Of a stretch of DNA of 38,526 nt, positions 9,403 through 35,795 are shown piece after piece; position 1 is the first letter of the stretch, and every line of letters begins with the position of its first letter. The notes under the pieces are model-generated. The model was not told where the DNA came from, searched no databases, and saw only the letters and a list, made by a program, of their open reading frames with translations. Source of the DNA: Acidobacteriota bacterium (GTDB lineage Bacteria > Acidobacteriota > Terriglobia > Bryobacterales > Bryobacteraceae); contig JACOTZ010000219.1 of the NCBI GenBank assembly GCA_016178155.1, positions 1 through 38,526 of the forward strand. Direction: 5' to 3'. Position numbers and translations under genes: made by a program.

Positions 9403-9501
9403 GAATCAGCACCGCTGCCGCTCTTGGCCAGGCGCCCGCCCGCCGGTGACCGCATGCGATGCGCTCTTTGCGTACTCCTTCGATCTTCGCCCTGGGATGG
9501 A

Positions 9502-9598: not shown

Positions 9599-9619
9599 GG
9601 GCGTAGCGGTCTAATGCAG

Positions 9620-10971: not shown

Positions 10972-11910
10972 TTGGGCGACCCCGTGCCATCCACGCGCCT
11001 CGAGACCGAACTCTGCGGAGTACGTTTGCGGAACCCTGTGCTCGCGGCTTCGGGTACGTTCGGCTACGGCATCGAGTTTGCGCGTGTGGTCGATCTCACT
11101 CTTTTGGGCGGCTTCGTCGTGAAGGGGCTTTCGCGCGAGCCTATGGACGGCAACCCCCCTCCCCGCGTGTGGGAAACCGAGGGCGGGATGATCAACTCGA
11201 TCGGGCTTCAGAACATCGGCGTGCGCGCCTTCGTGCGCGCCAAGGCTCCGGCGCTGCGTCTGATCAACACCCCTTATTTCGTGAATGTGTTCGGCTACGC
11301 GCCCGAGGATTACGTGGAAGTCGTGCGCGCTCTGGAGGACACCGACGGGCCGGCCGGCTACGAGCTGAATGTCTCGTGCCCGAATACGAAACATGGCGGC
11401 ATCTTTTTTTCGAGCGACCCCGGCCTGCTCGCCGAAGTGGTCCGTTCGGTGAAGACGGTGGCCCGCCGGCCAGTGATCGTCAAGCTGTCGCCGAACGTCT
11501 CGCGCATCGAGCCGCTCGCTCGGGCCGCCGAGGACGCAGGCGCCGATGCACTGTCCCTCGTGAACACCTTCATCGCCCTGGCGGTTGATGCCCGCGCTCG
11601 CAGACCGCGCATCGGCGGCGGGTTCGGTGGACTTTCCGGGCCGGCGATCAAGCCGATCGCGTTACGGCTCGTTTATGAAACGGCGCGATCCGTGAAGCTC
11701 CCGGTCATCGGCCTGGGCGGGGTCGCGAGCGGCGAGGACGCAGCCGAATTCCTCGTCGCGGGCGCGACTGTCGTTCAGGTAGGAACGGCAACATTCTGGG
11801 ATCCGCAGTCGCCCGCGCGCATCGCGCGCGAACTAGACCACTTCTTACAGGAGGAGAACGTCGCCAGCGTGCGCGACCTCACCGGCACGCTGCGCTTCGA
11901 CCCGCAATGA
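10972..11910 (+). CDS. pyrD: Dihydroorotate dehydrogenase, class 1B catalytic subunit-like
   Basis: LRNPVLAASGTFGYG...GGFVVKGLS...NSIGLQNIGV...ELNVSCPNTKHGG...VKLSPNV...GGGFGGLSGPAIKPIALRLVYE...GLGGVASGEDAAEFLVAGATVVQVGTA. TTG start. Confidence 0.93.
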   Translation: MGDPVPSTRLETELCGVRLRNPVLAASGTFGYGIEFARVVDLTLLGGFVVKGLSREPMDGNPPPRVWETEGGMINSIGLQNIGVRAFVRAKAPALRLINTPYFVNVFGYAPEDYVEVVRALEDTDGPAGYELNVSCPNTKHGGIFFSSDPGLLAEVVRSVKTVARRPVIVKLSPNVSRIEPLARAAEDAGADALSLVNTFIALAVDARARRPRIGGGFGGLSGPAIKPIALRLVYETARSVKLPVIGLGGVASGEDAAEFLVAGATVVQVGTATFWDPQSPARIARELDHFLQEENVASVRDLTGTLRFDPQ

Positions 11911-12293
11911 AGCAAATCATTTCGACCACTCATGCGCCGAAGGCGATCGGACCTTACTCGCAGGCGGTCGCTTTCGAGAACCTGGTTTTCGTGAGCGGCC
12001 AGATTCCAATCGACCCGGCCACCAATCAGCTCATCGAGGGCGATGTGGCCGCACAAACCGAGCGTGTGCTGGGGAACGTGAAGGCCGTGCTCGAGGCGGC
12101 CGGATCGAGCCTTGAGAACGTACTCAAAACCACGGTGTATCTCCGCAACATGGATGATTTCCCGCGTGTCAACGAGGTCTACGCGCGCTACTTCGGGGCG
12201 AACTCGCCCGCGCGGGCGACGGTGGAAGCGGCCAGGCTGCCGCGCGACGTGCAGGTGGAAATCGAGGCCATCGCGTTTGCCCGGCGTAGCTGA
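11907..12293 (+). CDS. ridA: RidA (YjgF/YER057c/UK114) family protein
   Basis: MKQIISTTHAPKAIGPYSQAVAFENLVFVSGQIPIDPATNQ...KTTVYLRNMDDFPRVNEVYARYF...PARATVEAARLPRDVQVEIEAIA. Overlaps the pyrD stop by 4 nt. Confidence 0.95.
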   Translation: MKQIISTTHAPKAIGPYSQAVAFENLVFVSGQIPIDPATNQLIEGDVAAQTERVLGNVKAVLEAAGSSLENVLKTTVYLRNMDDFPRVNEVYARYFGANSPARATVEAARLPRDVQVEIEAIAFARRS

Positions 12294-12330
12294 CCGGCCT
12301 ACGAATTGTAGGCAGCCTCACATCTAATTG

Positions 12331-12536
12331 CCGCGAGTCGGCGGTTCTCCACCGGCTCGCGGCGCGGGGCCGACGGTTGATCCCAGGTCGAGCCGGGGAT
12401 CGGGAACGGGTAGGCTTCAGGAGTACTACCAGGCTCGCCTTTCCTAGGACCAAGCTTGGGATTCAGTCTAGTACTTACCCGCTTTTGGTCCGTCGGGTGA
12501 TCCCCACCTGAATTTAAGCACTCCACCCGATTGGAG
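12331..12536. ncRNA. Hairpin-dense intergenic region, candidate structured RNA
   Basis: CCGCGAG...CTCGCGG (12331-12362), GATCCC...GGGATC (12379-12401), CGGGTAGG...CTTACCCG (12407-12481), TCGGGTG...CACCCGA (12493-12530). Confidence 0.3.
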
Positions 12537-12580
12537 GGAGTACCTCGCCCGTCCTACAATGTCATTGAAAGATTCCGGAG

Positions 12581-18486: not shown

Positions 18487-19425
18487 CACGTTTGAGCCTC
18501 CACCGTCTTGCCCGTTAACTGATCAAACGTCAGCCGCTTCCCGACGATGCCTTTCACGGCCATGCTGAACCGCTCCGCATCCCGTCAACTTACGATTGTT
18601 GAAGCGATATGCCTGTTCATCGAGGTATCGAAACAAATGGTACGGTTCGACGGAAACGTAGGTACCATGCAGCCCACGTTTGAGCAGGCTCCAGAAGTTT
18701 TCCAGCCCGTTGGTGTGGACTTCGCCGTTCACATACGAAACCGCGTGGTCGATGACTGCGTGCTGGAATTCATCGAGGCCATTGTAGGATTGAAGTGCAT
18801 CGGTGAAGATCGTGGAACCGGCGAGGACACGCTCACGCAATTCCCCCTGGAGCGCTTTCTTCCGCGTGTTGTCTACAACCTTAGTCCGAACGTTGCCGCC
18901 ACGCTTAAGGATTCCCATTACGGCAACTTTGTCTTTGCCGCCTGTACCCGTGATCTTCACGGCTCGCCTGTCCTTGTGCATGTTTCGCGCCTTGCCGCCG
19001 ATGTAGGTCTCGTCCGCTTCGATCTGACCGGAGAGCTTGTTGCCAGGCCCCATGCCCAGTGCAAACCGAATCCGGTGATCGAGAAACCATGCCGACTTCT
19101 GGGTGATCCCGATAGCCCGGTGAACTTCGCATGAACTGATACCGTTCTTGGAGTTCACAATCTGCCACATAGCGGTAAGCCACTTGTCGAGGCCGATGGG
19201 GGAATCTTCCATAACGGTTGCCGTCTTGAGGGTGAACTGCGGAGCGGCGTGGCCTTGCCGACAGTGCCAGCGATTGTACTTCTCCAGGAACAGAACATTC
19301 AGGTTCCCGCAACGCGGGCAGGTGACGCCCTTCGGCCAGCGACGCGCCACCAGATACTCACGGCAGTTCGCAGGTTTCGAGAAGTAGATTATCGCTTCCT
19401 GGAGTGTCGTGGGCTCTTGTTCCAT
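18487..19425 (-). mobile_element. IS1595 (ISXO2-like) family transposase; C-terminus frameshifted (listed ORF 18523-19425)
   Basis: CPRCGNLNVLFLEKYNRWHCRQGHAAPQFTLKTATVMEDSPIGLDKWLTAMW...; IEADETYIGGKARNMH; DHAVSYVNGEVHTNGLENFWSLLKRGLHGTYVSVEPYHLFRYLDEQAYRFNNRK; removing one G gives RKLTDAERFSMAVKGIVGKRLTFDQLTGKTVEAQT* ending at 18487. Confidence 0.9.
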
Positions 19426-19772: not shown

Positions 19773-20007
19773 GACCTATGAGTGTATCCTGCACGCGTCC
19801 GCTGCAGAGCATTGGCGTGCTGCTGCATCATGGCGATCGGTTGGGTCAGCGCGCCAGCCAACGCATCGCTCTGCGTCAGGTGGCTGACGAATGTGCGATT
19901 GCGCCGGTTCCCGCTCGCGGTTGTACTCCTATTCCCCCCGGTATACAATGGCCGCAATCAGGTTGGGTGAAGGGGTGCCCCGCCTGACGAGCAGTCAAGG
20001 GGGTCAA

Positions 20008-23000
20008 ATGTTGCGGGGTTTTATCTTGCGAGGTTTTGCAGCCGTCGCGCTGTGCACGGTCCTCTCGTTCGCGCAGGACTTCAGAGCCACCATCCTCGGC
20101 CAGGTCACGGATCCAACGGGTGCGGCGATTCCGCACGCCACCGTCAAGGCTGTCAAGACCGGCACCAATGAGACCAAGGAGACGACCACGAATGCGGCCG
20201 GCATCTATACGCTGCCGTATCTCGATCCCGGCGACTACACGGTGATCGCCAGCGCCACCGGATTCTCCGAGCTGCGCCGCACGGGCATTTCCGTGCGCGT
20301 AGCCGACAAGCTGAATCTGCCGCTCAAGCTCGAGCTGGGGCAGGTGGCCGAATCGGTTACCGTCACCGGCGAAGCCGAGCTGATTCAGACGGCAACGGCG
20401 TCGCGCGGGCTGGTGTTCGATCCCATTAAGGTGCAGGAGTATCCCCTGAACGGGCGGCAGAGCTATATGCTCATGATGCTCACGCCGGGCGTGATGTTCA
20501 CGCAACGCACGTTCGGCTCGTCGGGATTTTCCGGCACGCGGGCGTGGGACATGAACGGCAATTACACGATGAACGGCGGACGGACGGGCACCAACCAGTT
20601 TCTGCTCAACGGCGCGCCGGTCAGCACGACCGGATCGTGGCAGCTCGCGCCCAACGTCGAGGCCATCCAGGAATTCAAGGTGATGGTCAACACGTATGAC
20701 GCGGCGTACGGGCGGTCGGGCGGCGGGCACGTGAACACGACCATCAAATCGGGCACGAACGCCGTCCACGGCTCGGTCTTCGATTTCTGGCGCAACACCA
20801 TCCTCGATGCCAACAATACACAGAACAACCGCCAAGGGGCCGGACGCGGCAAGCGCAACCAGCACCAGTTCGGCGGCGCGGTTGGACTGCCGATCCGCAA
20901 GGACAAAGATTTTCTGTTCTTCAGCTTCGAAGGCTGGCGCGAGATCGTCCCCTTTCCAGTGGTTTCGAGCGCTCCGCCCGCCGCCATGCGCACCGGCGAT
21001 GGCTTCACGCTTTTCGGCCAACGCATCTACGATCCCTTGACGTCGCGCACGTGCGTGGCCGGCGTGGACGCGCCGAGCTGCCTCGCCAATGGACAGTACA
21101 TCCGCGCGCCGTTCCCCGAAAACCGGATCCCGGCAAGTCGCATCCATCCGGTCGGCAAGCGCATTCTCGATTTATATCCGCTGCCCAACCAGGTGGGCAG
21201 GCTGACGCTGAATCAGAATTTCTTCGCCACCGAAAGCGTCGGCCGCTACCGGTACGAGCAGCCGATGGTCCGCTACGACAAGGTCATCAGCGACAAGGAC
21301 CGGTTGTACGGACTGTTTTATTTTCAGGATGGCTCCGAGTTCCGCAACCAGAACGGGTTTGACCCGCCCGCCCGCACCGGCAACATGCATTCGGTGCGCA
21401 CGCTCTGGGGAGTAGTGGTGGATTACACGCGTGTCATATCCTCCACCACCGTGCTCGACGTGCGCGGCTCGCTGACGCGCTTCTGGTCCAATTTCCCGGA
21501 TGTCTCGGACTACGAGTTCACCTGGGACAAGCTCGGCATCAAGCAAATCCCCGAGGTGGCGAATTTCCAGAACCGGCTGGCGCCGCGGGTGACGGTAAGC
21601 GATTACAACGCAATTCTCGGCAACCAGCGCATCAACTGGAGCGCTCAGGACCAGCTCACGTTGTCGCCAAGTCTCTCGCAGACCCGGGGGCGCCACAGCA
21701 CCAAGTACGGTTTCGAATGGGCCGTAATTCAGCGTCCGAGCAGATCCGAGGGACGTTCCAGCGGCGAGCTCGGCTTCGACCGGGTCTGGACCCGCCGTTA
21801 TTCCGGGCGCGCCGAGCCCGGCCGCGGCAATACCGACGGCAGCGGCATTGCGAGCCTGCTGCTCGGACTACCGACCAGCGGTTCCATCGCCTATAACGAC
21901 ACCTTCCTGCGGCGCGATCCGTACGTCGCCTGGTACGTGCAGGACGACTGGAAGGTGTCCAACCGCCTGACGCTGAATCTCGGGCTGCGGTACGACTTCC
22001 AGTTCCCGTTCACCGAAATGCATGACCGCACCAACTCCGGCTTCGATTTCGACGCCAAGAACCCGCTGAGCGATCAGGTGCTGGCGCGATGGCGGCAACT
22101 GAAGACCGAATACGACGCGCGCAATCCGCGCTACCCGTACCCAGAGCCGCCGGCCGAGCTCAAGGGAGGTTTGCTGTTCGCCGGAGTTGGCGGACAGCCG
22201 CGCCGCATCTATGACTTCGACTTCACGACGGTGCAGCCGCGCGCCGGCGTCGCCTGGCAGTTCATGGAGAAGACTGTCCTGCGAGCCGGCTTCGGGATCT
22301 TTCACCGGTTCGAGAGTCAGACGGGCATCGCCACCGGCTTCAGCCAATCGACCCCCTACCAGCGCTCGCTCGATGGGGACCGCACGCCTTCGGCCGGGGC
22401 TACGGGCCCGTACTCCCTCGAGAACCCATGGCCGCAGGGAGTGATCGCGCCCTCCGGATCCTCGCTCGGACTGCTCACCAACGTGGGCCGTGGCGTTACT
22501 TTCCATTCCCGCAAGCGCGAAATCCCTCGCACCTATCAGTATTCGTTCGGTCTCGAGCGCGAGTTGCCGGGGCAGATGGTGCTCGAGGCGTCCTACGTCG
22601 GCAGCCGCACCTATCATGAGCCGATCACGCTGCAGCTCTCCGAAATGAGTTGGGAGCAGCGGCTGAAGTTCATTGCGGATACAAACAATCTGAATGTTCC
22701 GCTGCCGAACCCTTACTACGGGATTCTCCCGGCGGCCGGGGGACTGGGCGCCGCCCCCGTGATCAACGCGCGCGAGCTGTACCGGCGGATTCCGCTTTTC
22801 CCCGGCGTCAGCCAGGGGCTCGTGCCCTGGGGAGCTGTCTGGTACAACGCGTTGCAGATCCGGTTCGAGAAGCGCGCCTTCTCAAACCGTACCGCCGGTG
22901 CGCTCACCTGGGTGCTCTCTTATACGTTCGCCAAGCAGATGGAGCGCAGCCTGATCAACAACTGGAACTTCGAAAACGAGAAGCAGATCTCGCAGTTGAC

Positions 23001-23523
23001 CTCCATTGACCGGCCGCAGCAGTTCTCTTTCAGCGGTGTCTGGGACTTGCCGTTCGGAAAGGGGCGTCACTTCGGGATCGACAACCCGTTGCTGAACGCG
23101 CTCGCCGGCGGCTGGAACTACAACTGGATCCTGACGTACTACGCGGGTCCTCCCACCGGTTTTCCGGATGCAATCTTCACCTGCGGAAGCTACGTGGTGA
23201 CGGATCGCGCGCCGGAGCGGTGGTTCAATAATGACCGGGGCTGCTACACGGACCGTGCGCCCTTCAGCCGCCGCGAGGTGGAATCGAGATTTCCGAGCAT
23301 CCGCGATCCTGCCATGCCGCAGCTCAGCATGGCCATTGCCAAGAAGTTCCGCTTTACGGAGCGCTACACGCTCGAGGCGCGCGGCGAGGCGTTCAATGCA
23401 ACCAACACGCCAATTCTCAAGGGTCCGAACACGAATTTCCGAAGCCCGGACTTCGGCCGGCTACCGATTCAGCAGGATAATTTCCCGCGGAACATTCAGC
23501 TCGGGCTGCGTCTGAGCTTCTAG
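20008..23523 (+). CDS. TonB-dependent receptor (Oar-like) with N-terminal carboxypeptidase-regulatory-like domain
   Basis: Signal peptide; ILGQVTDPTGAAIPHATVKAVKTGTNETKETTTNAAGIYTLPYLDPGDYTVIASATGF; plug and barrel motifs (PLNGRQSYMLMMLTPGV, WYVQDDWKVSNRLTLNLGLRYD); C-terminal QLGLRLSF. Confidence 0.93.
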   Translation: MLRGFILRGFAAVALCTVLSFAQDFRATILGQVTDPTGAAIPHATVKAVKTGTNETKETTTNAAGIYTLPYLDPGDYTVIASATGFSELRRTGISVRVADKLNLPLKLELGQVAESVTVTGEAELIQTATASRGLVFDPIKVQEYPLNGRQSYMLMMLTPGVMFTQRTFGSSGFSGTRAWDMNGNYTMNGGRTGTNQFLLNGAPVSTTGSWQLAPNVEAIQEFKVMVNTYDAAYGRSGGGHVNTTIKSGTNAVHGSVFDFWRNTILDANNTQNNRQGAGRGKRNQHQFGGAVGLPIRKDKDFLFFSFEGWREIVPFPVVSSAPPAAMRTGDGFTLFGQRIYDPLTSRTCVAGVDAPSCLANGQYIRAPFPENRIPASRIHPVGKRILDLYPLPNQVGRLTLNQNFFATESVGRYRYEQPMVRYDKVISDKDRLYGLFYFQDGSEFRNQNGFDPPARTGNMHSVRTLWGVVVDYTRVISSTTVLDVRGSLTRFWSNFPDVSDYEFTWDKLGIKQIPEVANFQNRLAPRVTVSDYNAILGNQRINWSAQDQLTLSPSLSQTRGRHSTKYGFEWAVIQRPSRSEGRSSGELGFDRVWTRRYSGRAEPGRGNTDGSGIASLLLGLPTSGSIAYNDTFLRRDPYVAWYVQDDWKVSNRLTLNLGLRYDFQFPFTEMHDRTNSGFDFDAKNPLSDQVLARWRQLKTEYDARNPRYPYPEPPAELKGGLLFAGVGGQPRRIYDFDFTTVQPRAGVAWQFMEKTVLRAGFGIFHRFESQTGIATGFSQSTPYQRSLDGDRTPSAGATGPYSLENPWPQGVIAPSGSSLGLLTNVGRGVTFHSRKREIPRTYQYSFGLERELPGQMVLEASYVGSRTYHEPITLQLSEMSWEQRLKFIADTNNLNVPLPNPYYGILPAAGGLGAAPVINARELYRRIPLFPGVSQGLVPWGAVWYNALQIRFEKRAFSNRTAGALTWVLSYTFAKQMERSLINNWNFENEKQISQLTSIDRPQQFSFSGVWDLPFGKGRHFGIDNPLLNALAGGWNYNWILTYYAGPPTGFPDAIFTCGSYVVTDRAPERWFNNDRGCYTDRAPFSRREVESRFPSIRDPAMPQLSMAIAKKFRFTERYTLEARGEAFNATNTPILKGPNTNFRSPDFGRLPIQQDNFPRNIQLGLRLSF

Positions 23524-23739: not shown

Positions 23740-24237
23740 TCAGCGCACGGTACGCGCGCGGCTGCCGGTTTTCAGCGCATAGTTGGAGAACGCCATGATA
23801 TGCCCGCCGTGGCCCTGCACGAAACGGGTGGCGGCGGCTGCGGACGCAAACGCGATGGCGCTCGGAGCGCAGCGATCGTAGTGGCTGTCGAGCGCGTGCT
23901 TGTGCTCGTCCACCCGTACTGGGCCCCGGGCACAGTAGTTCACATCGCTGCCGTGGACGATGTATGCGGATGCGGGGGAGATCATCGCACCCGACGCGTA
24001 ATCGGTGAGCGAGACCACGTTGACATCGTTTCCAGTTTGCCGGCTATGCGAGTTCAGGCAGGCGGGGCAGCAGAAGAGCACCTTGTGTCCACCGATGGTG
24101 GCAAAGGTCGCCGTGCGCTCCGACACCGGACGCCGGCAGGCGGTGCATTCCTCGTGCCCAGCCGCGCGGTAGACGAGAAAGCCGGCCAGAACGGCCACAG
24201 TCACCGCCGCGGGCAGCAGCACTTTCCTCCAAGACAT
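23740..24237 (-). CDS. NosL-like membrane-anchored protein with extra Cys motifs
   Basis: N-terminal TM helix; EECTACRRPV...VLFCCPACLNSH; then AYIVHGSDVNYCARG...YDRCAPSAIAFASAAAATRFVQGHGGHIMAFSNY, resembling NosL. Confidence 0.65.
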   Translation of the reverse strand: MSWRKVLLPAAVTVAVLAGFLVYRAAGHEECTACRRPVSERTATFATIGGHKVLFCCPACLNSHSRQTGNDVNVVSLTDYASGAMISPASAYIVHGSDVNYCARGPVRVDEHKHALDSHYDRCAPSAIAFASAAAATRFVQGHGGHIMAFSNYALKTGSRARTVR

Positions 24238-24402
24238 CGGAGCCCCTCAAACTCCATGGTACTCCCACCGGGGCGGGAGATGGGGCGGCCGTTCGCCGCA
24301 CCGGCAAGCCTACGCGGCTGTCCGCCTGTTTCTAGGGAACGTGCGGCGGCCGCCAGCGAAGCAAGACCTGGATGGCTGGGAGCAGGCTTTCGGGATACCG
24401 GA

Positions 24403-24927
24403 TCACTCGTCCGGTTTCTCGTGGTCCTTGCAGGCGTAAAGCAGCGCGTCAAGTATATCCGCGTATCCGTCCGCCCCGGCGCCCCGGCATTGTGCCGCCG
24501 CTCGCCGCAGCCAGTGGATGAGGTGCCGTTCCATGAACTCGCGCTGGGCGGTGCGCAGCGACTGGCCGTCGTTGCCCGCATCGATGCAGTGCTCCAGCCA
24601 GCTCAAAAACTCAAGCTGGGTCAGCAGGTGGTCCGCCGGAGCCTGCGAGAGCAGTTGCAGGCCGAAATGCTTGTAGAACAGCTTGTTCTCGAGCACCACT
24701 TCACCGGGCGCGCGGCTGTCCACGTAGGCGCTCTCGAGCAGCGGGCATTTCGGCTGCGGCAGGCCCGCCTCGAACAGCGACAGGTATTGCGCGCGGAGAT
24801 CGTCCAGACTGCCAGGGGCCTCGTCCCAGATCTCGCGGAAGCGCTCGAGATGCCACTCATCCGGATAGGCGAGCAGCCGCCGGAAAGTCGCGTACAAATT
24901 GATGTCGCTTATTGCAGCCTGTGCCAT
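24403..24927 (-). CDS. TorD/DmsD/NarJ-type molybdoenzyme chaperone
   Basis: LYATFRRLLAYPDEWHLERF...AQYLSLFEAGLPQPKCPLLESAYVDSR...LFYKHFGLQL...DHLLTQLEFLSWLE; ATG at 24927 overlaps the gamma-subunit stop. Confidence 0.82.
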   Translation of the reverse strand: MAQAAISDINLYATFRRLLAYPDEWHLERFREIWDEAPGSLDDLRAQYLSLFEAGLPQPKCPLLESAYVDSRAPGEVVLENKLFYKHFGLQLLSQAPADHLLTQLEFLSWLEHCIDAGNDGQSLRTAQREFMERHLIHWLRRAAAQCRGAGADGYADILDALLYACKDHEKPDE

Positions 24928-25592
24928 ACGCTGAAATACTTCCGGCCGTCCCGGTCCTGCTGCCCGCCATTCCACACGGCGACCGAGAGCGGCGTTCCTG
25001 CCGCAACCTCGGGCAGCTCCAACACGATCGTCCAGTTGCCGCCCGCCCACGTTGCGCGCGCCGGGAACTTCCGGCCCGTCCGCTTCGTGGTGCCGCGGCC
25101 CGCGGCTTCCATGACCTCGGCCCCGCGCGCCGCGTCGTAGTAATAGATGAGCACGGGATGCAGCGCGTCGCCCATCTGCAGCGATGGAAACAGGTCGTTG
25201 GCCACCGGCTGAGCGGGGAGCATCACCGCGCAGCCATCGAAGAACCGATTGGTTGCCGCCGATTGCCTTACCAGCCCTTCGCTCTGCCACATCTTCTTCG
25301 GCTTGTCGAGCGACGCGGTCTCGGCCGACGGGTCCGGCCAGGCAAGCCGTACCCAGGTCTTGCCCGCGCCGCGAATCACCTTGACCTCGACCGACGCGAT
25401 TTCGAGCGCCGACGGCGGCTCGGTCGCATACTGCGGCGGCGTGCGGTGCAGCGCCAGCTTGGAGGCCTCGACTGCCTGCCACACCGCGCCGGCGGGATTG
25501 AGGTCTCCCGTGACGCCCGAACGCGCGCCCACGGTCAACTCCGCCGCGACGGCGGCGCCGATCACGAAAGCGAAACCCAGTAGACTTCTCAT
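24909..25592 (-). CDS. Type II DMSO-reductase-family gamma (heme b-binding, ethylbenzene dehydrogenase-like) subunit
   Basis: Signal peptide; VWQAVEASKLALHRTPPQ...VEVKVIRGAGKTWVRLAWPDPS...RFFDGCAVMLPA...GNWTIVLELPE...SVAVWNGGQQDRDGRKYFSVWHRLQ; position within operon. Confidence 0.78.
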   Translation of the reverse strand: MRSLLGFAFVIGAAVAAELTVGARSGVTGDLNPAGAVWQAVEASKLALHRTPPQYATEPPSALEIASVEVKVIRGAGKTWVRLAWPDPSAETASLDKPKKMWQSEGLVRQSAATNRFFDGCAVMLPAQPVANDLFPSLQMGDALHPVLIYYYDAARGAEVMEAAGRGTTKRTGRKFPARATWAGGNWTIVLELPEVAAGTPLSVAVWNGGQQDRDGRKYFSVWHRLQ

Positions 25593-26605
25593 GCGTGCCT
25601 CGCCGGCTGAATCTGGACCAAATCTTCGCGTTGCGCGATCTGATAACGCACGCCGGCGTCGCGGCCGATCAGCAATTGCAGGACCTCGCTGCGCCCGCCG
25701 CTCTGTGCAACTTTTAGTTCCGCTTCGAGACGCCGGATCACCTCCACGACCTCCTCGCCGAACAGGTAAATCAGATAATCGAGCGGTAGCCGCGGATCTT
25801 CGAGGATGCTCTTGCCGTAGTTTCCCGTCCGCGGCGGATTGAAAGGCGGCACGTAGAACACGTTGGGGTCCGTCCCCTTTTCCGGGAACAGGCCGAGCGC
25901 GACCTTGTGCACCTTGACCAGCTTGTGCACGGTCGAATGCGGATCATCGAGCAGCCCCACGAACCGGATGCGCCCGGGACACTGCTTGGCGCACGCATTC
26001 ACGTCGCCTTTCTCGAGCCGCGGATAGCAGAAGATGCACTTCTGCGACTTGCCGAGCAGCTCGTTGAAATAGATCTTCTTGTACGGGCACGCCTGGATGC
26101 AGTGGCGGTAGCCTTCGCACCGCTCCTGATCGATCAGGACGATCCCGTCCTCCTCGCGCTTGTAGATGGCGCTGCGCGGACACGCGGCCAGGCAGGCCGG
26201 ATTCGTGCAGTGGTTGCAGATGCGCGGCAGATAGAAATAGTAATTCTCGCCCAGCATCAGCGCGCCGACGTCTTCATCCCAATTGGGCGTGTTGCGCACT
26301 TCCTGGTGCGGCTGGGCCGATGCCGCGCCCCCATACATGCGCGCTTCGTAGTTGTACTCGAACGTCTGGCCGTAATCTTCCTTGGTCGGGATCTCGCTGG
26401 GACGGAGCTGGCCGCGGTCGAATCCGCCGCCCATCTCGTCCCACTTGCGCGGATACCCCTGGCCGGGCCGTGTCTCGACGTTGTTCCAGTACATGTAATC
26501 CATGCCGTCGCCGTCGGTCCACATTTTCTTGCACGCCATGGTGCAGGTCTGGCAGCCGAGACACTTGTTCAGGTCGAGCACCATCGAGTACTGGTGTCGG
26601 GACAT
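25589..26605 (-). CDS. Type II DMSO-reductase-family beta subunit with four Fe-S clusters (NarH/Nxr/Ebd-like)
   Basis: CLGCQTCTMACKK, YMYWNNVETRPGQGYP, CNHCTNPACLAACP, CEGYRHCIQACPYKKIYFNELLGKSQKCIFCYPRLEKGDVNACAKQCPGRIRFVG. Confidence 0.92.
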   Translation of the reverse strand: MSRHQYSMVLDLNKCLGCQTCTMACKKMWTDGDGMDYMYWNNVETRPGQGYPRKWDEMGGGFDRGQLRPSEIPTKEDYGQTFEYNYEARMYGGAASAQPHQEVRNTPNWDEDVGALMLGENYYFYLPRICNHCTNPACLAACPRSAIYKREEDGIVLIDQERCEGYRHCIQACPYKKIYFNELLGKSQKCIFCYPRLEKGDVNACAKQCPGRIRFVGLLDDPHSTVHKLVKVHKVALGLFPEKGTDPNVFYVPPFNPPRTGNYGKSILEDPRLPLDYLIYLFGEEVVEVIRRLEAELKVAQSGGRSEVLQLLIGRDAGVRYQIAQREDLVQIQPARHA

Positions 26606-26608
26606 GGC

Positions 26609-29374
26609 CTATGCCTTCCTCTCGCCGTTCCAGCGCATGGCCCGCAGGTCCGCCTCTGTCGGCGTGTACTTCATCACATCCACCCTCAGGTCGCGGTTGT
26701 TGCCGGTCGGGCCCCAGTAGTTGAGCTTGAAATTGACGTGGCCGTAGCCGCCCACGAGTTGCGTCGGCTTGATCTTGATGTATGTGGGCGACTGCCAACT
26801 ACCCTGCAGGAACCCGAGGTAGCGCTCCCAGCCGTGATACATCGTCAGCCGCTTGCGCTTCTCGCCCGGCAGGATCTGGACTTTGCTCACGAACGCGCCC
26901 TGGTTGTTAAAGACCTTGACCCAATCGTTATCCTCGATGCCCTTCTCTTTCGCATCGTCGGGATGCATGTAGACGATCGGGACGCCACGCTGCAGGCGCA
27001 ACTGGTAGCGCGCGTCCCGCCAGGTCGAGTGGATCGACCAGCGGCCGTGCGGCGTGTTCCAGAAAAACGGATATTTCGCGTCTTCCTCGAGCGGGACCTT
27101 GTACGCCGGCAGTTGCTCGTCGAAATCGAGGTACCAGGGGTGGTCGATATAGAACTGCTGCCGGCCCGTGAGCGTGCGCCAGGGGCGTTTCTTCACCAGC
27201 TGGTGCTTGAACGGCGTGTACGCGACTCCCTGTTCGATATCGCTGTTCCAGGCCTCCCAATCCGTGGCAACGAACCGCTTGGGCCCGGAGGCGAGCTGGC
27301 TGTACTGCATCCCCTTGGTCTCCGGCGAGTGCTCGAGGATGAAGTTCGCCGCCTCTTCATCGCGGGCCAGCTTGCCGTGCGCGCACCAGAGGTCGTGCGT
27401 TTTGGTGAAGTCGCGCTCCCAGTTGAACTGCGCGTCGAGGTACGGCTTCAGCCCGCGCTTCGCTGCCACTTCGGAGATCTTCTTCGCCAGTGCGCCGAAA
27501 ACGTCCCAGTCGGGTTTCGAGTCATAGAGAGGATCAAGAACCTTACTGAACGGGTGAATGTAGCTGTGGCAGTCGGTTGAGTTCAGGTCGGTCTTCTCGT
27601 AGTAACTCGAGGCCGGCAGCACGACGTCCGAATGCAGCGCCGTCGTGTCCATCCGGTAGTTGACGTCTACGATCAGATCCAGGTCTTTCCACAGTGATTC
27701 GAGAATGTGTTCGTTGCCCTTGGCCTGATTGAGGTAATTCGCCCGCCAGACGATCAGCGCCCGCGGCTTCTGATCGCGCTTCTTCGGATACAGCGGCATC
27801 CAGCCGTTCTTCACGCTGGCCTCGATGTAGTGCTCGATCGGCTTGCCGTTGTAGAGATGCCTGTCCTGGTTGGACGAATGGACGTAACTCCACAGCGTCA
27901 TATTTTGGAAGCGCTGCTTTTTCGGCCCCTCGGGGAAGGCGAGCGTCTTGAAGCCGTGTTCGGGCCAGATACGCTCCTGCCCCACGTAGTGGTTGAAGCC
28001 ACCGCCGTTCTTGCCGACGTTGCCCGTCAGCGCGACCAGCAGAATCAGCGCCCGGTTGATCAGGTCGTTGTGGAACCAGTGGTTCAGGCCGGCGCCGTGG
28101 ATAATCATGGCGGGCTTGCGCGTGCCCATCTCGTGCGCGAACTGCCGAATATCGTTGGCCGGAAGGCCGGTGACGGATGCGGCGTATTCGAGCGTGTACT
28201 TCGCCAGCCGCTCCCGCAGCAACTCGAATACGGTGACGACTTCCTTGCCCTCGTGCGTGAAGCGGGCGTGCAGGTCGGGCTGGACGCCGCCCAGTCCGAT
28301 CGACTGCACCTTGGAGCCCATCGTGCCTGGCGCTTCCAGCACGCGGCCCGTCTTCGCGTCGCGCCAGAGGAAGCGGTCGTCTGCCCCCGGCGGACGCAGG
28401 AAACGGCCCGTCCGGCGTTCCACCAAAAGCGGCAGATCGGTCTGCTCCTGGACGTAGGGCTCGTCGTACAGCTTGTTCTCGATGATGTAGTTCGCCGCGA
28501 ACAGCGCCAGCGCCGCGTCCGTGCCGGGCTGGATCGGCAGGTAGAGGTCGGCGTGCATACAGCTCGAATTGAAATCGGGCGAGATGGCGACCAGCTTCGC
28601 GCCGTTGTAGCGCGCCTCGTAGGCGAAGTGGGCGTCCGGGATGCGGGTCTGCGAGATATTCGAGCCCCAGAGAACGATGTACTTGGAGTTGAACCAGTCG
28701 GCGCACTCACACGATTCCGTCTGCACGCCCCAGGTCAGAGGCTCGCCCGGAGGCAGGTCGCAGTACCAGTCGTAGAAGGAGCAGAAAACGCCGCCGATGT
28801 AGTGCGCCAGCCGCGACCCCGCGCAGAACGACACCGGGCTCATCGCCGGAATCACGCTGAAGAACGTGTTGGTATCCGGCCCGTATTCATAGATATTGTC
28901 GAGCAGCTTGTTTGCGATCAGCGTGAGCGCCTCGTCCCAGCTCGCTTTGCGCCATTTGCCTTCGCCGCGCGCCCCGGTGCGGATCAGGGGCGACTTCAGA
29001 CGCTGCGGCCCGTAGACGTACTCGACGAAGCATGCCCCCTTCTGGCAGCCGCGTGGGTTGTAGTCGGGCAGGTCCTCGTTAATGCGCGGATAGTCCGCCG
29101 CCTGCTCCTCGCGTACCATCACGCCGTCGCGCACGTATACTTTCCAACTGCACGACCCGGTGCAGTTGGCCGAGTGCGTCGACCGCACCACCTTGTCCCA
29201 GGTCCACTGCTTGCGGTATAGGTCTTCCCAGGAGCGATAGGGATAACTGCGCAGCGGGTCGAACTCGCCGGTAAAGCTTTCGAGCGCCGGCATCTCCTTT
29301 TTCTTGCAGCCCGGGATCGTCTGCGCCAGCGCCGCGAGTCCGGCGAGCTTCAACAGGTCACGTCGGCTCTTCAT
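26609..29374 (-). CDS. Type II DMSO-reductase-family catalytic alpha subunit (NarG/Nxr/Ebd-like molybdopterin oxidoreductase), Tat-exported
   Basis: [27 protein letters not shown] Tat motif; [20 protein letters not shown]...[35 protein letters not shown] (Asp-type Mo ligand region); [15 protein letters not shown]. Confidence 0.92.
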
Positions 29375-29489
29375 ATCCTTCTCTCCTGCGAATCCTGCGA
29401 GCGGCGCCGGGCGCGACCGCCTCGGTTGGTTCCACCAGCAGCCGCGGCCCGCCCGGCCGCTAGCCGCTCTCCTGTTTGCACGATCGGCT

Positions 29490-30977
29490 TCACCGTTCCT
29501 CGCTCCCGGCAACCTGGTCTCGCTCCGGAGCACGCCCGTAGCTTCTCGCCTGCCGCACCGGCTGCGCGAGCGACCGGATGTAGGCGAGCAGATCGCCGAT
29601 TTCCTGCTGGCCCAGGCCGGCGCGCCCGAACGACGGCATCGGCGTGTTGCCTCGGCCGTTGCGAATCGTCTCCGCGATGAAGGCGTCAGTCGCGGCCTTT
29701 TGGAACACCGCGTTGGCCAGAGCCGGTGCGAAACCGTTCTTGCCGCCCACGCCGTGGCAGCCCGCGCAGTTCATGGTGAACAGCCTGTGGCCCCGCTCGG
29801 CCGACCCCCGGGCGGGCGCCGGCGGCAGCGCCGTGAATTTCGTTTCGCCGCGCAGGTACTCTACGATCGCCTGGATCTCTGCTTCGCGCAGCCCGCCCGC
29901 CTTCGGACCCCAGCCCGGCATCTCGGTGCCCGGGCGGCCTTCCAGAATGTTCTCGGCCAGGCATTCATCGTCTTCGAGCCGCAGAAACGCCTGGTTGCGG
30001 ATCGCCGGGATAAAGCGCTTGAAATTCTTCGACCAGCGCGCATACAGGCCGGTGTCGTGGCAATGCGAGCAATACTTGGCGTAAAGCGCCTCGCCCTTGG
30101 GCGCGGCCGGATGAAGCTTCGCGTACTTCTCCTCGATCTTGTCGTTCGCGAGATATGCCTCCGGCAGGTCGCGCTTGCGTAGCGACAGGATGTATACCGT
30201 GAGCGCTTCCCGCTCGGCCGCCGTAAGCCCGACGCTCGGCATTTTGGTGCCCGGCACCAGGCCCCCGGGGTCGCGCAGGTGCTCGCTATGCCAGTTCCAC
30301 GTCGTCTGCGAGCCGCTCAGGTGCGCCCGCATGAATTGGTGCTTTGTCTTGAGGCCAACGTTATCGAGCGCCGGCCCGAGCGATCCGCCCTTGCCCTCGA
30401 TCTTGTGGCACGACGCGCAGCCCTTAACGTCAAAAAGCTCCATGCCGCGCACCAGCTTCGCCGCCGAGCCGCGGGATAACGCCCTGGGGTCGTGACAGGT
30501 GGCGCAGGTCGCTTCCGTGAGCGCGGCCGGCAGCAGCGGGTAGTCCCAGAACGCCTCCTCACCCTTGGCGTCGTTGAACGTCAGCGCCAGCCCCTGGCCC
30601 TGGTGGCAGGTGGTGCAGCCGAATTTCGCCACCGGGTGCCACTTCAGCAGTTCTTGGGAATGCGTGCGGTGGGGCTGGCTCTGGTCTGCCATGCGCCCGT
30701 CCTCGATGCCGTTGTGACAACTGACGCAGCGGTCCACCACCTTCAAGGCGGGCACGGTCACTTGCCGGATTTCGATCGAAAACGCTTCGGCACGCCGCCG
30801 TGCGACCGCGTCCGCCGACTTGGCGAGCAGGATCGTCTTGTACTCCCGCTGCACGCCTTTCCATTCCGCCGCGACATTCTCGCGGATGGCTGCCGCGGCC
30901 AGGAACACGATCGAAAGAACGCTGGACACAAGCAGCGCCCATTTCGAGAGCCGAGCGGGGTCAGAGTTGGGATGCAT
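29490..30977 (-). CDS. Membrane-anchored hexaheme c-type cytochrome
   Basis: Six CxxCH motifs (CVSCH, CTTCH, CATCH, CASCH, CSHCH, CAGCH) after an N-terminal TM helix; start at ATG 30977 (MHPNSDPARLSKWALLVSSVLSIVFLAAAA) inside a longer listed ORF. Confidence 0.9.
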   Translation of the reverse strand: MHPNSDPARLSKWALLVSSVLSIVFLAAAAIRENVAAEWKGVQREYKTILLAKSADAVARRRAEAFSIEIRQVTVPALKVVDRCVSCHNGIEDGRMADQSQPHRTHSQELLKWHPVAKFGCTTCHQGQGLALTFNDAKGEEAFWDYPLLPAALTEATCATCHDPRALSRGSAAKLVRGMELFDVKGCASCHKIEGKGGSLGPALDNVGLKTKHQFMRAHLSGSQTTWNWHSEHLRDPGGLVPGTKMPSVGLTAAEREALTVYILSLRKRDLPEAYLANDKIEEKYAKLHPAAPKGEALYAKYCSHCHDTGLYARWSKNFKRFIPAIRNQAFLRLEDDECLAENILEGRPGTEMPGWGPKAGGLREAEIQAIVEYLRGETKFTALPPAPARGSAERGHRLFTMNCAGCHGVGGKNGFAPALANAVFQKAATDAFIAETIRNGRGNTPMPSFGRAGLGQQEIGDLLAYIRSLAQPVRQARSYGRAPERDQVAGSEER

Positions 30978-30994
30978 GAGGGACCTTCTCCTTT

Positions 30995-32530
30995 TCAATG
31001 CACCGGCCACTGGCTCGGCCACCAGTAGAACTGCCAGTTGGGGCCCCGAAAAACCGTGCCCATCAGCGTCAGCACCACGAACCCCATCTGGAAACAGGTG
31101 AACAGGGCGATAGCGGCCAGGCGCGGCGAACCAGTCCGCTTCACCACCCACAGCGACCATGCCATGTAAATCCCTACGATCACCGTGCCGGGATTGACGG
31201 CGGTGATCATGAGCTGCGGAATTTTCGGATACCAGTCGCGAAGCCAGCCCAACTGGACCGTGAATACCAGGAGCGAGATCACGCTCGCCAGCCCGAACAG
31301 CGCCGACTTCCAGGCGACGCGCCTGCCCTCGGGTCCGCCGAACCATTGGCCGGTGCCCCGCGGGTCGCGATCCAGGTAGGGGATGAGCGCAAGCCCGAGC
31401 AGCACGATGGTTGGAATGCCCACGCCGCCCATGAACGCCGAATACGAAACCAGTTCCTGCAGCCCGAGGAAGTACCAGGGGGCCTTGGCGGGATTCTCCG
31501 GAATCGCGGGATTCGCCATCTCCTTGAGTGGCGCATCCGACAGCAGCGAGAGCCCGAGACTCACCGCGACCGTGAACATCAGTGCCGCCCCATAGGCCCA
31601 TAACAGGTTCGGCCAGCTCGGGACGGTGCCGTCGGGACCGCGGCCCACCGCGGGCGTGCGTCCCCGTACGATCGCCATCAGCCCATAGGTCTTGCTCGGG
31701 CTGGTTTGAAACACATGCATGCTGCGGCCCAGCACGCTGGCGGGCGGCGCATCTTTCGTCAGGTCCCGCGACAGCCCGCCATCCTTGCGCACGCGCCAGA
31801 AGTGGAGGCCCATGAAGGCGCCGCACAGAAGCGGCAGCAGCACGATGTGCAACACGTAAAACCGGATCAGCGCCTCTTCGCCGACATAGGTGGCGCCGAG
31901 CAGCAACTGCTTCTGGAAGCCGCCCATGTCGAACCACCTCGTGATCCCGAGCGCGTCGGTGACCTCCCGCGGCGAGTTGGCGATATTGGCGCCGATCGTG
32001 ATCGCCCAGAATGCGAGCTGATCCCAGGGCAGCAGATATCCGGTAAAACTCAAGGCCAGCGTCAGAACCAGCAGCGCCAGGCCGATCAGCCAATTGAACT
32101 CGCGCGGCTTTTTGTATGAGCCCGTGTAGAACACTCGCGCCATATGCAGAAACACCGCGAACACCATCAAGTGCGCCGACCAGCGGTGAATGTTGCGGAT
32201 GAACCGGCCCGCGGGCACCACGTAGTGGATGTCTTTGATCGAGTTATAGGCCAGCTCGGTTGACGGCTTGTAATAGACCATCAGCAGAATTCCGGTGATC
32301 GTCAGCACGACGAAGGACGCGGTCAGGATCAGGCCCAAGCCGAGCGAGTAGGCGAAGCGGAGCGAGTTGCGGTGAACGCGCACGCTCTGCAGGTGCAGAA
32401 AAAAGTTGTGAAAGGTGGCCTGCGAGCGCTCGCGATCCGACTGGGGCGGCTTGCCCAGCCGCAGCCAGGATGCCCGCAGGTTCCTGGGAGTATCTTTCAG
32501 GTTCTGGATGAATTCGCGTGTGTCCGCCAT
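30995..32530 (-). CDS. Cytochrome b of a bc/b6f-type quinol oxidoreductase (full length)
   Basis: [38 protein letters not shown]...[30 protein letters not shown] (14-residue His spacing); [19 protein letters not shown]. Confidence 0.93.
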
Positions 32531-32534
32531 GGAT

Positions 32535-32996
32535 TTACGCCCGGAACTTCGTGCCGCGCGGAACCTCGGCTTCCGCGTTCAGCTGCAGTTGTCCTTCCAC
32601 GGAGAGGGAAATCTCGAGCCATGGCAGTCCGGTCGGCGCCGGACCGCCCACCACCTCGCCGCTTTCGCTAAAACGCGACCCGTGACACGGACAGGCAAAC
32701 CCGCCTTGCTCCTGCACCGCGATAATGCAGCCGAGGTGAGTGCATATGGTGGAAATGGCGTGAAAGCCCTGCTCGTCGCGGAACAGGCAGCACTGCTCGG
32801 TTTCGAGCTTCACCCGCGTGCCCACCGCGAACTGCTCGGGATCGCCCAGCTTGTAGATCCGCTGCGGGCCCGGCAGCACCGCCGGCTTGGGCAGTCGGAT
32901 GATGCCCGCCAGCGCCGTGCCGATCGCGGCGCAGAAACTCGAGATCGCGGCCCAGCTCAGGAAACTGCGACGGCTTCCCCGACGGTGCTCGTGCAT
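32535..32996 (-). CDS. Rieske [2Fe-2S] protein with Tat-like signal
   Basis: [28 protein letters not shown]...[24 protein letters not shown]. Confidence 0.93.
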
Positions 32997-34882
32997 GGGT
33001 GGTACTCCTCCCGAAATTGAAATCGCTCCATGGTGATGGCGTGCGTGGGACAGCGCTGCGCACACAACGCGCAGCGGATACAGCGGTCTTCGTCCTTGAT
33101 CACGGCGCTCCAGCCGGCCTGCACCTCGAGGCGTTGCAACAGGCTTTCGATCTCAGGGCTCGGCTCCAGCTCCTCGATGCCGACAAGCTTGAGACACAGC
33201 GTCGGGCACACGTCGACGCAGCCCCCGCACAGGATGCATCGCTCGCCGTCGAAGATCGTGTTGACGCCGCAGTCCAGGCAGCGCCCGGCTTCCGCGCGCG
33301 CCTGGGTCTCCGTGTAGCCCTTCTCTACCAGCGCGCGCGCGTCCGCCAGTCTCTCCGACGCGCCGAGCGCCGGCACCGCCAGCCGATGCCGCCGCTCGTA
33401 TCCCGTCTCGCGCCGGTACCCCTCGATTTCGAAGTGGAGCTGGGTCTCGTCAGTGCGGATCTCGGTGCCCGTCAGGTACGCGTAGACCGATCGCGCCGCC
33501 TTCTTGCCGCTGGCCACCGCATCGATGATCAACTTGGCGCCGTAGGCGACGTCACCAGCGACGAACACGCCCTCGGCCGTGGTCTCGAGCGTCTCCAGGC
33601 TCGACTGGATCTGCCAGGGCGATTTCAACTGCACCTCGCCGTCCGCTTCGAGGAACGTCAGATCCGGCACCTGCCCGACCGAGAGCAACACCGTGTCGGC
33701 CGTCATCTCGACGATGTCGTTGTCGTCGTACACCGGCGAGAAACGGCCGTTCTCGTCGAACACCGAGAGGACACGGCGGAAGCGGACCCCTGTGACACGC
33801 TTCCGCCCGCCCTCCGTGCGATAGAGGAACTCCTTCGGCCCGAGCCGGTTGTGCCGGCGGATGCCCTCCTCTTCGCCTTCGATGATCTCGACTTCGTCGG
33901 CCGGCATCTCCTCGCGCGACTCCAGGCAGACCAGGTTCACCTCGCGCACGCCCGGCTGACGTAAAGCAATGCGCGACACGTCGCTCTCGGTCTGCCGGTC
34001 GACCAGCCTCGCCGCGTCGTCTTCGCCGGGATTGCTGTGGCGCAGCGCCGAGCGCGACACGTCGTAGGCCACGTTGCCCCCGCCGATGACGATCACGCGC
34101 AGCCCCAGGCGGACCGGCTCGCCGAGCGAGGCGGCGCGCAGGAAGTCGACGCCTCCCACGATGCCCTCGGCATCGCCGCCCGGCAGCGCCAGCATGCGCG
34201 CGCGCTTCGCGCCGACCGCGATGATCACGGCCGCAAAATCGCGGCGCAGCGCGGCCAAGGAGACGTCGCGGCCCACCTTCACCCCGCAGCGGAACTCCAC
34301 GCCGAGCGCGCGCACCAGCTCGATCTCGGCATCGATGAGCTCCCGCGGCAGACGGTAAGCCGGGATGCCGGTGTAAAGCATCCCCGCCGGCACCGGCTCC
34401 ATCTCGAACACCACGGGACGGAAGCCGAGCAGCGCCAGGTCGTGCGCCGCTGCCAGGCCCGCCGGTCCCGAACCGATGATTGCCACCCGCTTGCCTTCCG
34501 GCCTGCGGTACTCGCGGGACGCCAGGAAGCGCGCCATTTGCACCATCTCGTCCAGGCCGTCGCAGGCGTCTTCCGGAAACTCCCCCGCGGGACGCCAGCG
34601 CCCGCCGAAGACGTCGGTGACGAAACGCTTCAGCGCACGGATCGAAATCGGCTCATCGATGTTGCGCCGCCGGCAGGCGACTTCACAGGGCGCGCCGCAC
34701 ACGCGGCCGCAAATGGAGGCGAGCGGGTTGGGACCACGCGCTATCAGGTAGGCCCGCTCGTAGTCGCCTTCCGCGATGGCCCGGATGTACCCACGCGCAT
34801 CCGTGTGCACCGGACACGCATACTGACACTTGATCTGTCTGCGCCAGTATTCCTGGTCCGGTACAACTGCGCGATACTCCAT
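32957..34882 (-). CDS. FAD-dependent pyridine nucleotide-disulfide oxidoreductase (GltD/NfnL-like) with C-terminal ferredoxin domains
   Basis: [91 protein letters not shown]-terminal [16 protein letters not shown] and [16 protein letters not shown]. Confidence 0.9.
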
Positions 34883-35228
34883 CTCCCGTCAGGCTCTGCA
34901 CGGAGGGTTCCATTCTCCCGATCCTTTCCAAGCCCACCTGACCGTCCCATGGCCCGCGAGCGCAGACCCCGTGCGCGATATCCCCCGGTAGCCGGGCCAG
35001 TGCGATTTGCCGCAGGCTCTCCCGCGCGATCACGCACACGCGAGGCGCAGGGCAACATGGTAGACGCGTTCCGTGAAACCTTTCTCCGCGGGCGTAGCTT
35101 AACCTGCGTCGCGGATCACACTGAGGGCCATGCACTTATGCGAGCGCGCATCGCAAGCTACAGACGAACATCCCCACCGGCCGCCGCTCTTGGCAGCTCG
35201 ATTGCAACGCCAACCGCCAAAATGGACT

Positions 35229-35795
35229 ATGCCTGCCCGATTCCCAGTTGATGTACTCATGCAGGAGCACCGTGTGATCGAGAAGGTCCTGGATGCCCTC
35301 GGGGCCGGTCTCAAGGACATCGACCGCGGCGCCTTTCCCGGCGCCATGATCGATGACGCCCTCGATTTCCTGGACAATTTCGCAGACGCCTGCCACCACG
35401 CCAAGGAGGAAGTCCTGCTGTTCCCGGCGATGAATGAGCGCGGCTTGCCGCGCGAAGCCGGCCCGGTGGCGGTGATGCTGTCTGAACACTCGCGCGGACG
35501 GGCCCAACTGGCCATGATCCAAGACCACCTCGCCGACGCCAAGGCGGGCTCGACTGGGGCTGTCGCCGTCGTGCGCCGCAACCTGGCTGACTATATCTGG
35601 CTCCTGCGCGAGCACATCGCCAAGGAGGACCAGGTGCTGTTCCAGATTGCGCGGAACATCTTCTCGGAAGAGGACAACGAGCGCTTGCAGGGTAAGTTCG
35701 ATGAGTTCGAAGCCGCCAGGGGCCGGCAGTTACACGAGAAGTACGAAGCGGTCGCCAACCGTCTGGCTGCCGCTATTAACATCGTTTCCGCCTGA
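35229..35795 (+). CDS. Hemerythrin HHE cation-binding domain protein
   Basis: MQEHRVIEKVLDAL...DACHHAKEEVLLFPAM...LSEHSRGRAQLA...LLREHIAKEDQVLFQIA. Confidence 0.9.
   Translation: MPARFPVDVLMQEHRVIEKVLDALGAGLKDIDRGAFPGAMIDDALDFLDNFADACHHAKEEVLLFPAMNERGLPREAGPVAVMLSEHSRGRAQLAMIQDHLADAKAGSTGAVAVVRRNLADYIWLLREHIAKEDQVLFQIARNIFSEEDNERLQGKFDEFEAARGRQLHEKYEAVANRLAAAINIVSA

Follow-up and report, generated by a model that had tools for sequence, protein, structure and literature searches.

The 38,526-nt contig JACOTZ010000219.1 of the Acidobacteriota assembly GCA_016178155.1 (the window, i.e., the whole stretch of DNA that was analysed; contig C440 in a 5.6-Mb genome bin that is 87% complete) carries a gene cluster in which a flavin adenine dinucleotide (FAD)/Fe-S oxidoreductase, a Rieske/cytochrome b module and a hexaheme cytochrome c stand next to a molybdoenzyme of the type II dimethyl sulfoxide (DMSO) reductase family. 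The locus raises the question of whether these genes form a single inherited unit, which substrate the molybdoenzyme uses, and in which direction electrons pass through the FAD subunit. The genes, in the order in which they are read, are:

32957..34882, minus strand: FAD/Fe-S NAD(P) oxidoreductase, 641 aa (Pfam Fer4_20, Pyr_redox_2, Fer4)
32535..32996, minus strand: Rieske [2Fe-2S] protein, 153 aa (PF00355; start and motif)
30995..32530, minus strand: cytochrome b, a b6-type half fused to a subunit-IV-like half
29490..30977, minus strand: membrane-anchored hexaheme cytochrome c, 495 aa (six CxxCH motifs, Pfam, invariant columns, hydropathy, AlphaFold2 (AF2) model)
26609..29374, minus strand: Mo-bisPGD catalytic alpha subunit, 921 aa, twin-arginine translocation (Tat) lipoprotein signal, type II DMSO reductase family, NarG-type active site (NCBIfam, trees, residues)
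25589..26605, minus strand: beta subunit with four Fe-S clusters (Fer4_11; TIGR03478 at 473.6 bits, just below the cut-off of 480.7)
24909..25592, minus strand: gamma subunit, secreted heme b protein of the EB_dh family (PF09459 at 28.1 bits, gathering threshold 33.3; TIGR03477 at 76.7 bits, below the cut-off)
24403..24927, minus strand: TorD/NarJ-type assembly chaperone, delta (PF02613, TIGR03482)
23740..24237, minus strand: NosL/TRASH-like membrane-anchored protein (PF05573, weak), a local neighbour outside the conserved unit

An earlier note on this stretch had described a nine-gene cluster. Its gene order and strand were borne out by our check of the open reading frames (ORFs), Pfam and NCBIfam concur with its family calls, and six CxxCH motifs are present in the hexaheme ORF. 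The genes are closely packed, with the junctions that had been described: the FAD gene (end 32957) and the Rieske gene (start 32996) overlap by 40 nt, beta and gamma by 4 nt (25592/25589), and gamma and TorD by 19 nt (24927/24909), while a gap of 3 nt lies between alpha (end 26609) and beta (start 26605). The start of alpha is probably the ATG at 29374, which would yield the Tat signal and a lipobox, and with this start 115 nt separate the hexaheme gene from alpha. TorD is followed, after 165 nt, by the NosL-like gene. A scan found no promoter-like sites inside the cluster and terminator-like sites only at the expected number; these scans gave no operon boundaries.

The alpha subunit was then used as a query against genome contigs, which yielded 45 loci, and the ORFs of these loci were scanned with the window proteins. 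Twenty of the loci were long enough to span the cluster, and every one of them showed the order FAD-Rieske-cytochrome b-hexaheme c-alpha-beta-gamma-TorD on the same strand; about 15 further loci carried copies truncated by the contig ends, and whole-genome searches added three more complete copies. By record title these loci come from Acidobacteriota, Armatimonadota, Omnitrophota, Planctomycetota (Phycisphaerae), Myxococcota and proteobacteria, all of them metagenome-assembled genomes (MAGs). The nearest alpha relatives, at 77-80% identity, belong to Bryobacteraceae, Solibacteraceae and other Terriglobia MAGs, so that the window bin groups with Acidobacteriota, a phylum in which the alpha clade is rare (5/396 genomes at >=73% identity, including that of the window). 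The NosL-like gene was found in the window and in no relative examined; hence, of the nine genes first described, the eight from FAD to TorD make up the conserved unit and the ninth is a local addition. Furthermore, the distances between loci of the seven partner proteins follow the alpha distances (Mantel r 0.90-0.94, gamma 0.68; 0/2000 permutations each), correlations that partly reflect species history, and that support joint inheritance but do not prove contact. Because the same order recurs and the partner distances track alpha, the eight-gene cluster is not a chance assembly but a co-inherited unit, and the synteny search suggested in the earlier note, as well as its idea of a linked membrane electron-transfer chain, came out in its favour.

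With respect to the catalytic subunit, alpha scored 1116 bits against TIGR03479 (cut-off 984.75) and carries the hallmarks of the type II DMSO reductase family to which it had been assigned, i.e., the Asp Mo ligand (D206) and the HxxxCxxxC motif of the FS0 cluster (H67, C71, C75 and C110). The closest solved structure is the perchlorate reductase PcrA (919.5 bits); among annotated genes, those for nitrate reductases on haloarchaeal plasmids come nearest (48%). An alpha phylogeny had been proposed in order to see whether alpha falls inside a characterised clade whose operons already contain all nine genes; in the trees it fell inside none. A separate clade was obtained both in a tree with 21 clade rows (98/100) and in a rebuilt tree with 11 clade rows and full-length references (100/100), and PcrA, haloarchaeal pNar, Ebd/Clr, NarG and the nitrite oxidoreductases (NXR) were placed outside it. 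The first tree contained NarG and NXR as partial domains and joined two long branches, and full-length rows were used for the second one; the sister group of the clade was resolved by neither.

The functional positions of alpha were taken from PMC8301774 and PMC8387239. Invariant in 21/21 clade members were the His-Cys3 ligands of FS0, Asn70, Trp77, the Phe200/Tyr201 gate, the Mo ligand Asp206, His432 and the Glu467 gate. This is the set of bacterial NarG, with Lys112 in place of Arg as the sole exception. PcrA has His at position 77 and Trp at position 467, NXR-type enzymes have Cys/Asp where the clade has His/Cys as FS0 ligands, and the gate residues of Ebd/Clr also differ. Five identities were thus considered for alpha and rejected: NarGHI (643 bits against narG TIGR01580, below the cut-off of 1084; NarI absent from the cluster; Tat signal present), a member of the haloarchaeal pNar clade (separate clades; His432 in place of Asp), perchlorate reductase (Glu467 and Trp77 rather than the Trp gate and FS0 His; separate clade), NXR of the Nitrospira/anammox type (His/Cys FS0 ligands; far from NXR in the tree), and the ethylbenzene dehydrogenase/chlorate reductase group, excluded by the trees and the active site. 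Separately, the alpha of a Rhodocyclaceae MAG (locus L033, 6508-9543) grouped with PcrA (100/100) and has the PcrA Trp gate and FS0 His, and it is a probable perchlorate reductase. Because the clade of the window carries the bacterial NarG residue set, nitrate is most likely the substrate of alpha. The statement that the substrate cannot be read from the sequence was thus narrowed by an active site of NarG type, unlike those of Pcr, Nxr, Ebd and Clr. Chlorate reduction is a probable side reaction, by analogy with Haloferax (PMC8301774), and we consider it likely that nitrate is the substrate and that quinol is the donor through the Rieske/b complex.

The remaining subunits have cofactor-binding features that would suit an electron path to alpha. 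In gamma the heme ligands are kept, since the Met of AVMLP and the Lys of DGRKYFS align with those of KsNXR-C and EbdC. The hexaheme cytochrome c consists of three NrfB/MtrC-like hemes followed by three class I cytochrome c domains, with one membrane helix, and its six CxxCH motifs are invariant across relatives, as are M246, M353 and M447, which would suit the three C-terminal domains; its AF2 model (pLDDT 73) gave in Foldseek only partial class I cytochrome matches, including the cytochrome cc of actinobacterial bcc complexes. The Rieske protein has a Tat-type signal (GSRRSFLSW), an N-terminal helix, the CTHLGC...CPCHGSRF motif and the same second-sphere Ser/Phe pair as Kustd1480. In cytochrome b, the b6-type half has four transmembrane (TM) segments with two HxnH pairs for hemes bP and bN, and the subunit-IV-like half has five; hydropathy at a lower threshold gave these nine (4 + 5) segments, with which the poor, low-confidence AF2 model (pLDDT 56) concurs, and PEWY is replaced by KAPWYF. 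The FAD subunit, probably cytoplasmic as no signal peptide was seen, combines an N-terminal DPD-type Fe-S domain, a GltD-like core with FAD and NAD(P) Rossmann domains, and a C-terminal 2[4Fe-4S] ferredoxin domain, and its relatives in the PDB are NfnA, NfnI and GltD.

The earlier note had called the combination with a GltD-like NAD(P)H module unusual; the subunit itself also occurs elsewhere. Hauser et al. 2025 described Kuenenia complexes with a Rieske protein, a b6-type cytochrome b, a five-helix subunit IV, a hexa- or octaheme cytochrome c and a putative NAD(P) oxidoreductase; they proposed that these complexes make NAD(P)H through quinol bifurcation, and reported that the FAD homologues co-migrate with their complex and that the potential of the Kustd1480 Rieske protein is +335 mV (PMC12954380). 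Anammox-type loci were recovered from three anammox-like genomes (G678, G573 and G490). Their b6 proteins have His43/Arg247 and His62/Arg266, exactly the published numbering of Kuste4571 and Kustd1481, and because of this match the loci were identified as R/b-3 (kuste4569-74) and R/b-2 (kustd1480-85). The anammox FAD proteins are 35-39% identical to that of the window from end to end, over ~566 residues, the Fe-S cysteine groups are kept, and the profile of the hexaheme cytochrome c matches the octaheme cytochrome c of R/b-2 at 190-198 bits. In the cytochrome b of the window, the conserved H46, R248 and K249 occupy the positions of Kuste4571 His43/Arg247 and Kustd1481 His62/Arg266-Lys267, the His/Arg residues of the proposed central heme b. 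The Arg of a CIRC motif was also considered as the published Arg511/Arg550, but the numbering did not match and no claim is made.

The same module was also found beside other enzymes. FAD subunits at 880-937 bits are present in 24 further Acidobacteriota genomes (n=396), and all 24 encode an NXR-type alpha with at least 70% identity to one whose end-to-end match to Kuenenia NxrA scores 867 bits, 20 of them on the same contig. The arrangement FAD-Rieske-cytochrome b-seven-heme c-NXR alpha-beta-gamma-TorD was seen in six Acidobacteriota loci (L152, L153, L155, L156, L157 and L158), and that of two Planctomycetota loci (L133 and L134) is much like it. The cytochrome c of these NXR loci has 7-9 hemes, and their alpha has ~1150 aa and a CAPND...C FS0 motif; a close NXR-type alpha occurs in ~31/396 Acidobacteriota genomes, and its carriers may be nitrite oxidisers that have gone unrecognised, or may reduce nitrate with an NXR-type enzyme. 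The five Nar-type genomes all lack an NXR-type enzyme. Hence, every genome with a close FAD subunit (29/29) holds either a Nar-type (5) or an NXR-type (24) enzyme, against a background of 36/396, with a hypergeometric p of ~1e-37 in which independence is overstated, as the genomes are related. In the FAD tree, the Nar-type and NXR-type subunits, with the exception of L134, group together (100/99), and the anammox relatives and those linked to cbb3 oxidases lie outside this clade. On this sequence evidence, the Rieske/b + FAD module is portable across nitrogen-oxide enzymes. The two parts were also observed on their own: L162 (genome G171, 7539-12555) is a FAD-Rieske-cytochrome b-hexaheme c unit with no adjoining molybdoenzyme, and L085 (4907-10167) and L086 (8533-13965) each have a Nar-like alpha-beta-gamma-TorD set with no adjoining Rieske/b module, in genomes that also hold anammox-type R/b loci; identity to the alpha of the window is 52-54%.

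How, then, may electrons flow through the complex? When Rieske/b complexes oxidise quinol, its two electrons part, one moving to the Rieske side and the other to the b hemes. We give even chances to a periplasmic quinol:nitrate oxidoreductase with a low-potential branch to NAD(P)+. Cytochrome b would oxidise quinol at its p-side Q site; the first electron would pass through the Rieske protein, the membrane-anchored hexaheme cytochrome c, the gamma heme b and the beta Fe-S clusters to Mo, where nitrate would be reduced to nitrite, and the second one through hemes bP and bN to the cytoplasmic Fe-S/FAD subunit and NAD(P)+. From the published potentials (NAD(P) -320 mV and menaquinone -70 mV, PMC12954380; nitrate ~+420 to +433 mV, PMC8387239 and PMC10100899), such a bifurcation would be exergonic, so that the reduction of NAD(P)+ could be driven by that of nitrate. 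For the FAD branch taken by itself, NAD(P)H formation by quinol bifurcation, as against feeding electrons in or a role in assembly, is a possibility that we hold at somewhat less than even. The direction at this subunit cannot be read from the sequence, and NAD(P)H formation in anammox is likewise a proposal (PMC12954380).

The opposite direction is the one envisaged in the earlier note, a linear chain from NAD(P)H/quinol to the Mo enzyme. NAD(P)H would be oxidised by the FAD/Fe-S subunit, and electrons would pass to heme bN or an n-side quinone site, then to quinol, the Rieske protein, the hexaheme cytochrome c and the nitrate reductase, in a self-contained NAD(P)H:nitrate oxidoreductase. GltD/NfnL-like FAD enzymes can run both ways and the gene linkage would be identical, but such a chain would bypass the proton-pumping complex I and waste energy, an argument made for the anammox homologues (PMC12954380), which are themselves proposed to make NAD(P)H. 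Of the original scheme, the linked electron chain stands and its direction becomes an alternative that we regard as rather unlikely. Still less probable is a FAD subunit that lies off the electron path, as an assembly, repair or regulatory flavoprotein, while the Rieske/b-hexaheme chain feeds the nitrate reductase. Close FAD relatives in cbb3-oxidase clusters without a Rieske/b complex would fit such a role; the 40 nt that the FAD and Rieske genes share, the constant position of the FAD gene in all spanning loci, the FAD distances that track alpha, the conserved Fe-S cysteines and the co-migration of the anammox homologues (PMC12954380) argue against it. An enzyme working as a nitrite oxidoreductase, with reverse electron flow through the module yielding NAD(P)H, would be in keeping with the NXR-type partners of the module in other Acidobacteriota and two planctomycetes, and with a periplasmic orientation like that of Nitrospira-type NXR. 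However, the FS0 ligation and the gate are of the NAR type and not of the Asp-ligated NXR type (PMC8387239), and alpha is far from NXR in a tree whose references are of the Nitrospira/anammox type, with Nitrotoga-type NXR outside the comparison, which makes this reading improbable. Finally, (per)chlorate or another oxyanion (selenate, bromate or iodate) as the physiological substrate is very unlikely, since, despite PcrA being the nearest solved structure and the chlorate reduction of haloarchaeal relatives (PMC8301774), all clade members have the Glu gate and FS0 Trp rather than the Trp and His of PcrA, and the neighbouring genes are of nitrosative-stress and Fnr type, not chlorate genes.

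Several points weigh against a quinol-bifurcating nitrate reductase. The function of the complex is predicted from sequence, and the cluster loci of named origin are all MAGs. Chlorate is reduced well by the haloarchaeal relatives (PMC8301774). Neither NirK above the cut-off nor NrfA was found in the window genome, which is 87% complete, nitrite reductases showed no special enrichment in cluster genomes, and NrfA is not clearly enriched in them (9/30 against 93/396 in the background); NrfA/NirK co-occurrence was therefore not counted in favour of nitrate respiration. Both b6f and anammox complexes have a cysteine for heme cN (WCMGG in anammox), which is found in no cytochrome b of the window clade. 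In a control, H46/RKDGG was also present in b6-like cytochromes of two planctomycete genomes without a FAD hit (G433 and G457), so that these residues are family traits and were ruled out as a marker of NAD(P) coupling. In addition, FAD relatives in clusters with CcoN-, FixO- and CcoP-like cbb3 oxidase genes (L159, L160 and L161; ~690-700 bits) are closer to the window FAD subunit than the anammox ones are.

The genes around the cluster were also inspected. Upstream, and divergent from it, is:

35130..35795, plus strand: hemerythrin-domain protein (PF01814)

In L018 and L044, the gene immediately upstream of the cluster encodes a relative of this protein (phmmer), and the neighbours in relatives are of denitrification type (NnrS, Crp/Fnr, ScdA/RIC, hemerythrin, MobA/B and MoaA), which fits nitrate respiration under nitrosative stress. 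No chlorite dismutase (Cld) was found among the scanned neighbours of relatives; the genomes were not searched for Cld. An Alginate_exp-type outer-membrane beta-barrel gene was observed upstream of the cluster in L009 (3052-4590), L030 (3105-4658) and L036 (2963-4255), possibly a porin for the substrate. In the window, a gene for a YwiC-like membrane protein (PF14256; 35835-36689) lies beside the hemerythrin gene, and an IS1595-type transposase (18523-19425) and a large ORF like a TonB-dependent (Oar-like) receptor (19891-23523; receptor call by eye) separate the cluster from the rest of the contig.

The joined unit is found beyond the anammox bacteria, in lineages that are common in soil and groundwater. 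As alpha scores below the narG cut-off, the nitrate-reduction potential of Acidobacteriota and relatives would be missed or misnamed by narG models alone, and in view of the linked NXR-type operons one may ask whether Acidobacteriota oxidise nitrite. Should the FAD branch produce NAD(P)H, then quinol bifurcation in Rieske/b complexes would be a general bioenergetic device rather than an anammox peculiarity, and it could be studied without anammox cultures. More tentatively, and with real doubt, Rieske/b + FAD might be a portable quinol-bifurcating NAD(P)H generator across phyla, placed on NarG-type, NXR-type (~6% of the sampled Acidobacteriota) and HAO-like (anammox) enzymes; external nitrate/nitrite chemistry would then drive internal NAD(P)+ reduction without complex I reversal.

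Among known systems, the haloarchaeal pNar operon (e.g., Haloferax) is close to the cluster in gene order. As had been suggested from its architecture, three haloarchaeal plasmids show Rieske-cytochrome b-alpha-beta-EB_dh gamma-TorD, the order shared with the window, with a type II alpha that is ~48% identical and has the Glu gate and FS0 Trp. However, the pNar operon has neither the FAD subunit nor the hexaheme cytochrome c, its alpha forms a separate clade with Asp where the window has His432, and haloarchaeal NarC has neither the N-terminal His nor the RKDGG of the window cytochrome b, so that the module of the window is not just the haloarchaeal one with extras. With NarGHI the enzyme shares all the tested catalytic and gate residues save Lys112 for Arg, but it is exported and not cytoplasmic, has no NarI, falls below the narG cut-off and belongs to a separate clade. 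PcrAB (4ydd/5e7o) is the nearest solved alpha and also has a Lys at the relay position between FS0 and the Mo cofactor, whereas its Trp gate and FS0 His are missing from the window enzyme, which lies in a separate clade. NxrABC (Kuenenia 7b04 type) is likewise a p-side type II enzyme with an EB_dh-type gamma and a Met/Lys heme; its alpha has ~1150 aa against 921 and Cys/Asp instead of His/Cys at FS0, and the window alpha scored 213 bits to NxrA. The anammox R/b complexes also encode an NAD(P) oxidoreductase with a Rieske protein (Ser second sphere), b6 with a five-TM subunit IV, and a multiheme cytochrome c; they differ in their heme cN Cys, in b6 and subunit IV, which are fused in the window, in gene order, in a FAD protein of a separate clade, and in an HAO-like protein where the window has a Nar enzyme. 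Caldithrix pairs Nap with Rieske/b (PMC5317091), and Methanoperedens has Nar plus a separate multiheme Rieske/b complex (PMC4683180). The combination had been called unusual, and no description of Nar with FAD/Rieske/b was found in the open-access literature; the subscription literature was outside the search, and an earlier description is possible. Haloarchaeal-type nitrate reductases with Rieske/b, and NAD(P) oxidoreductases in the Rieske/b complexes of anammox bacteria, are each known by themselves; in this cluster the two are combined in a single inherited unit.

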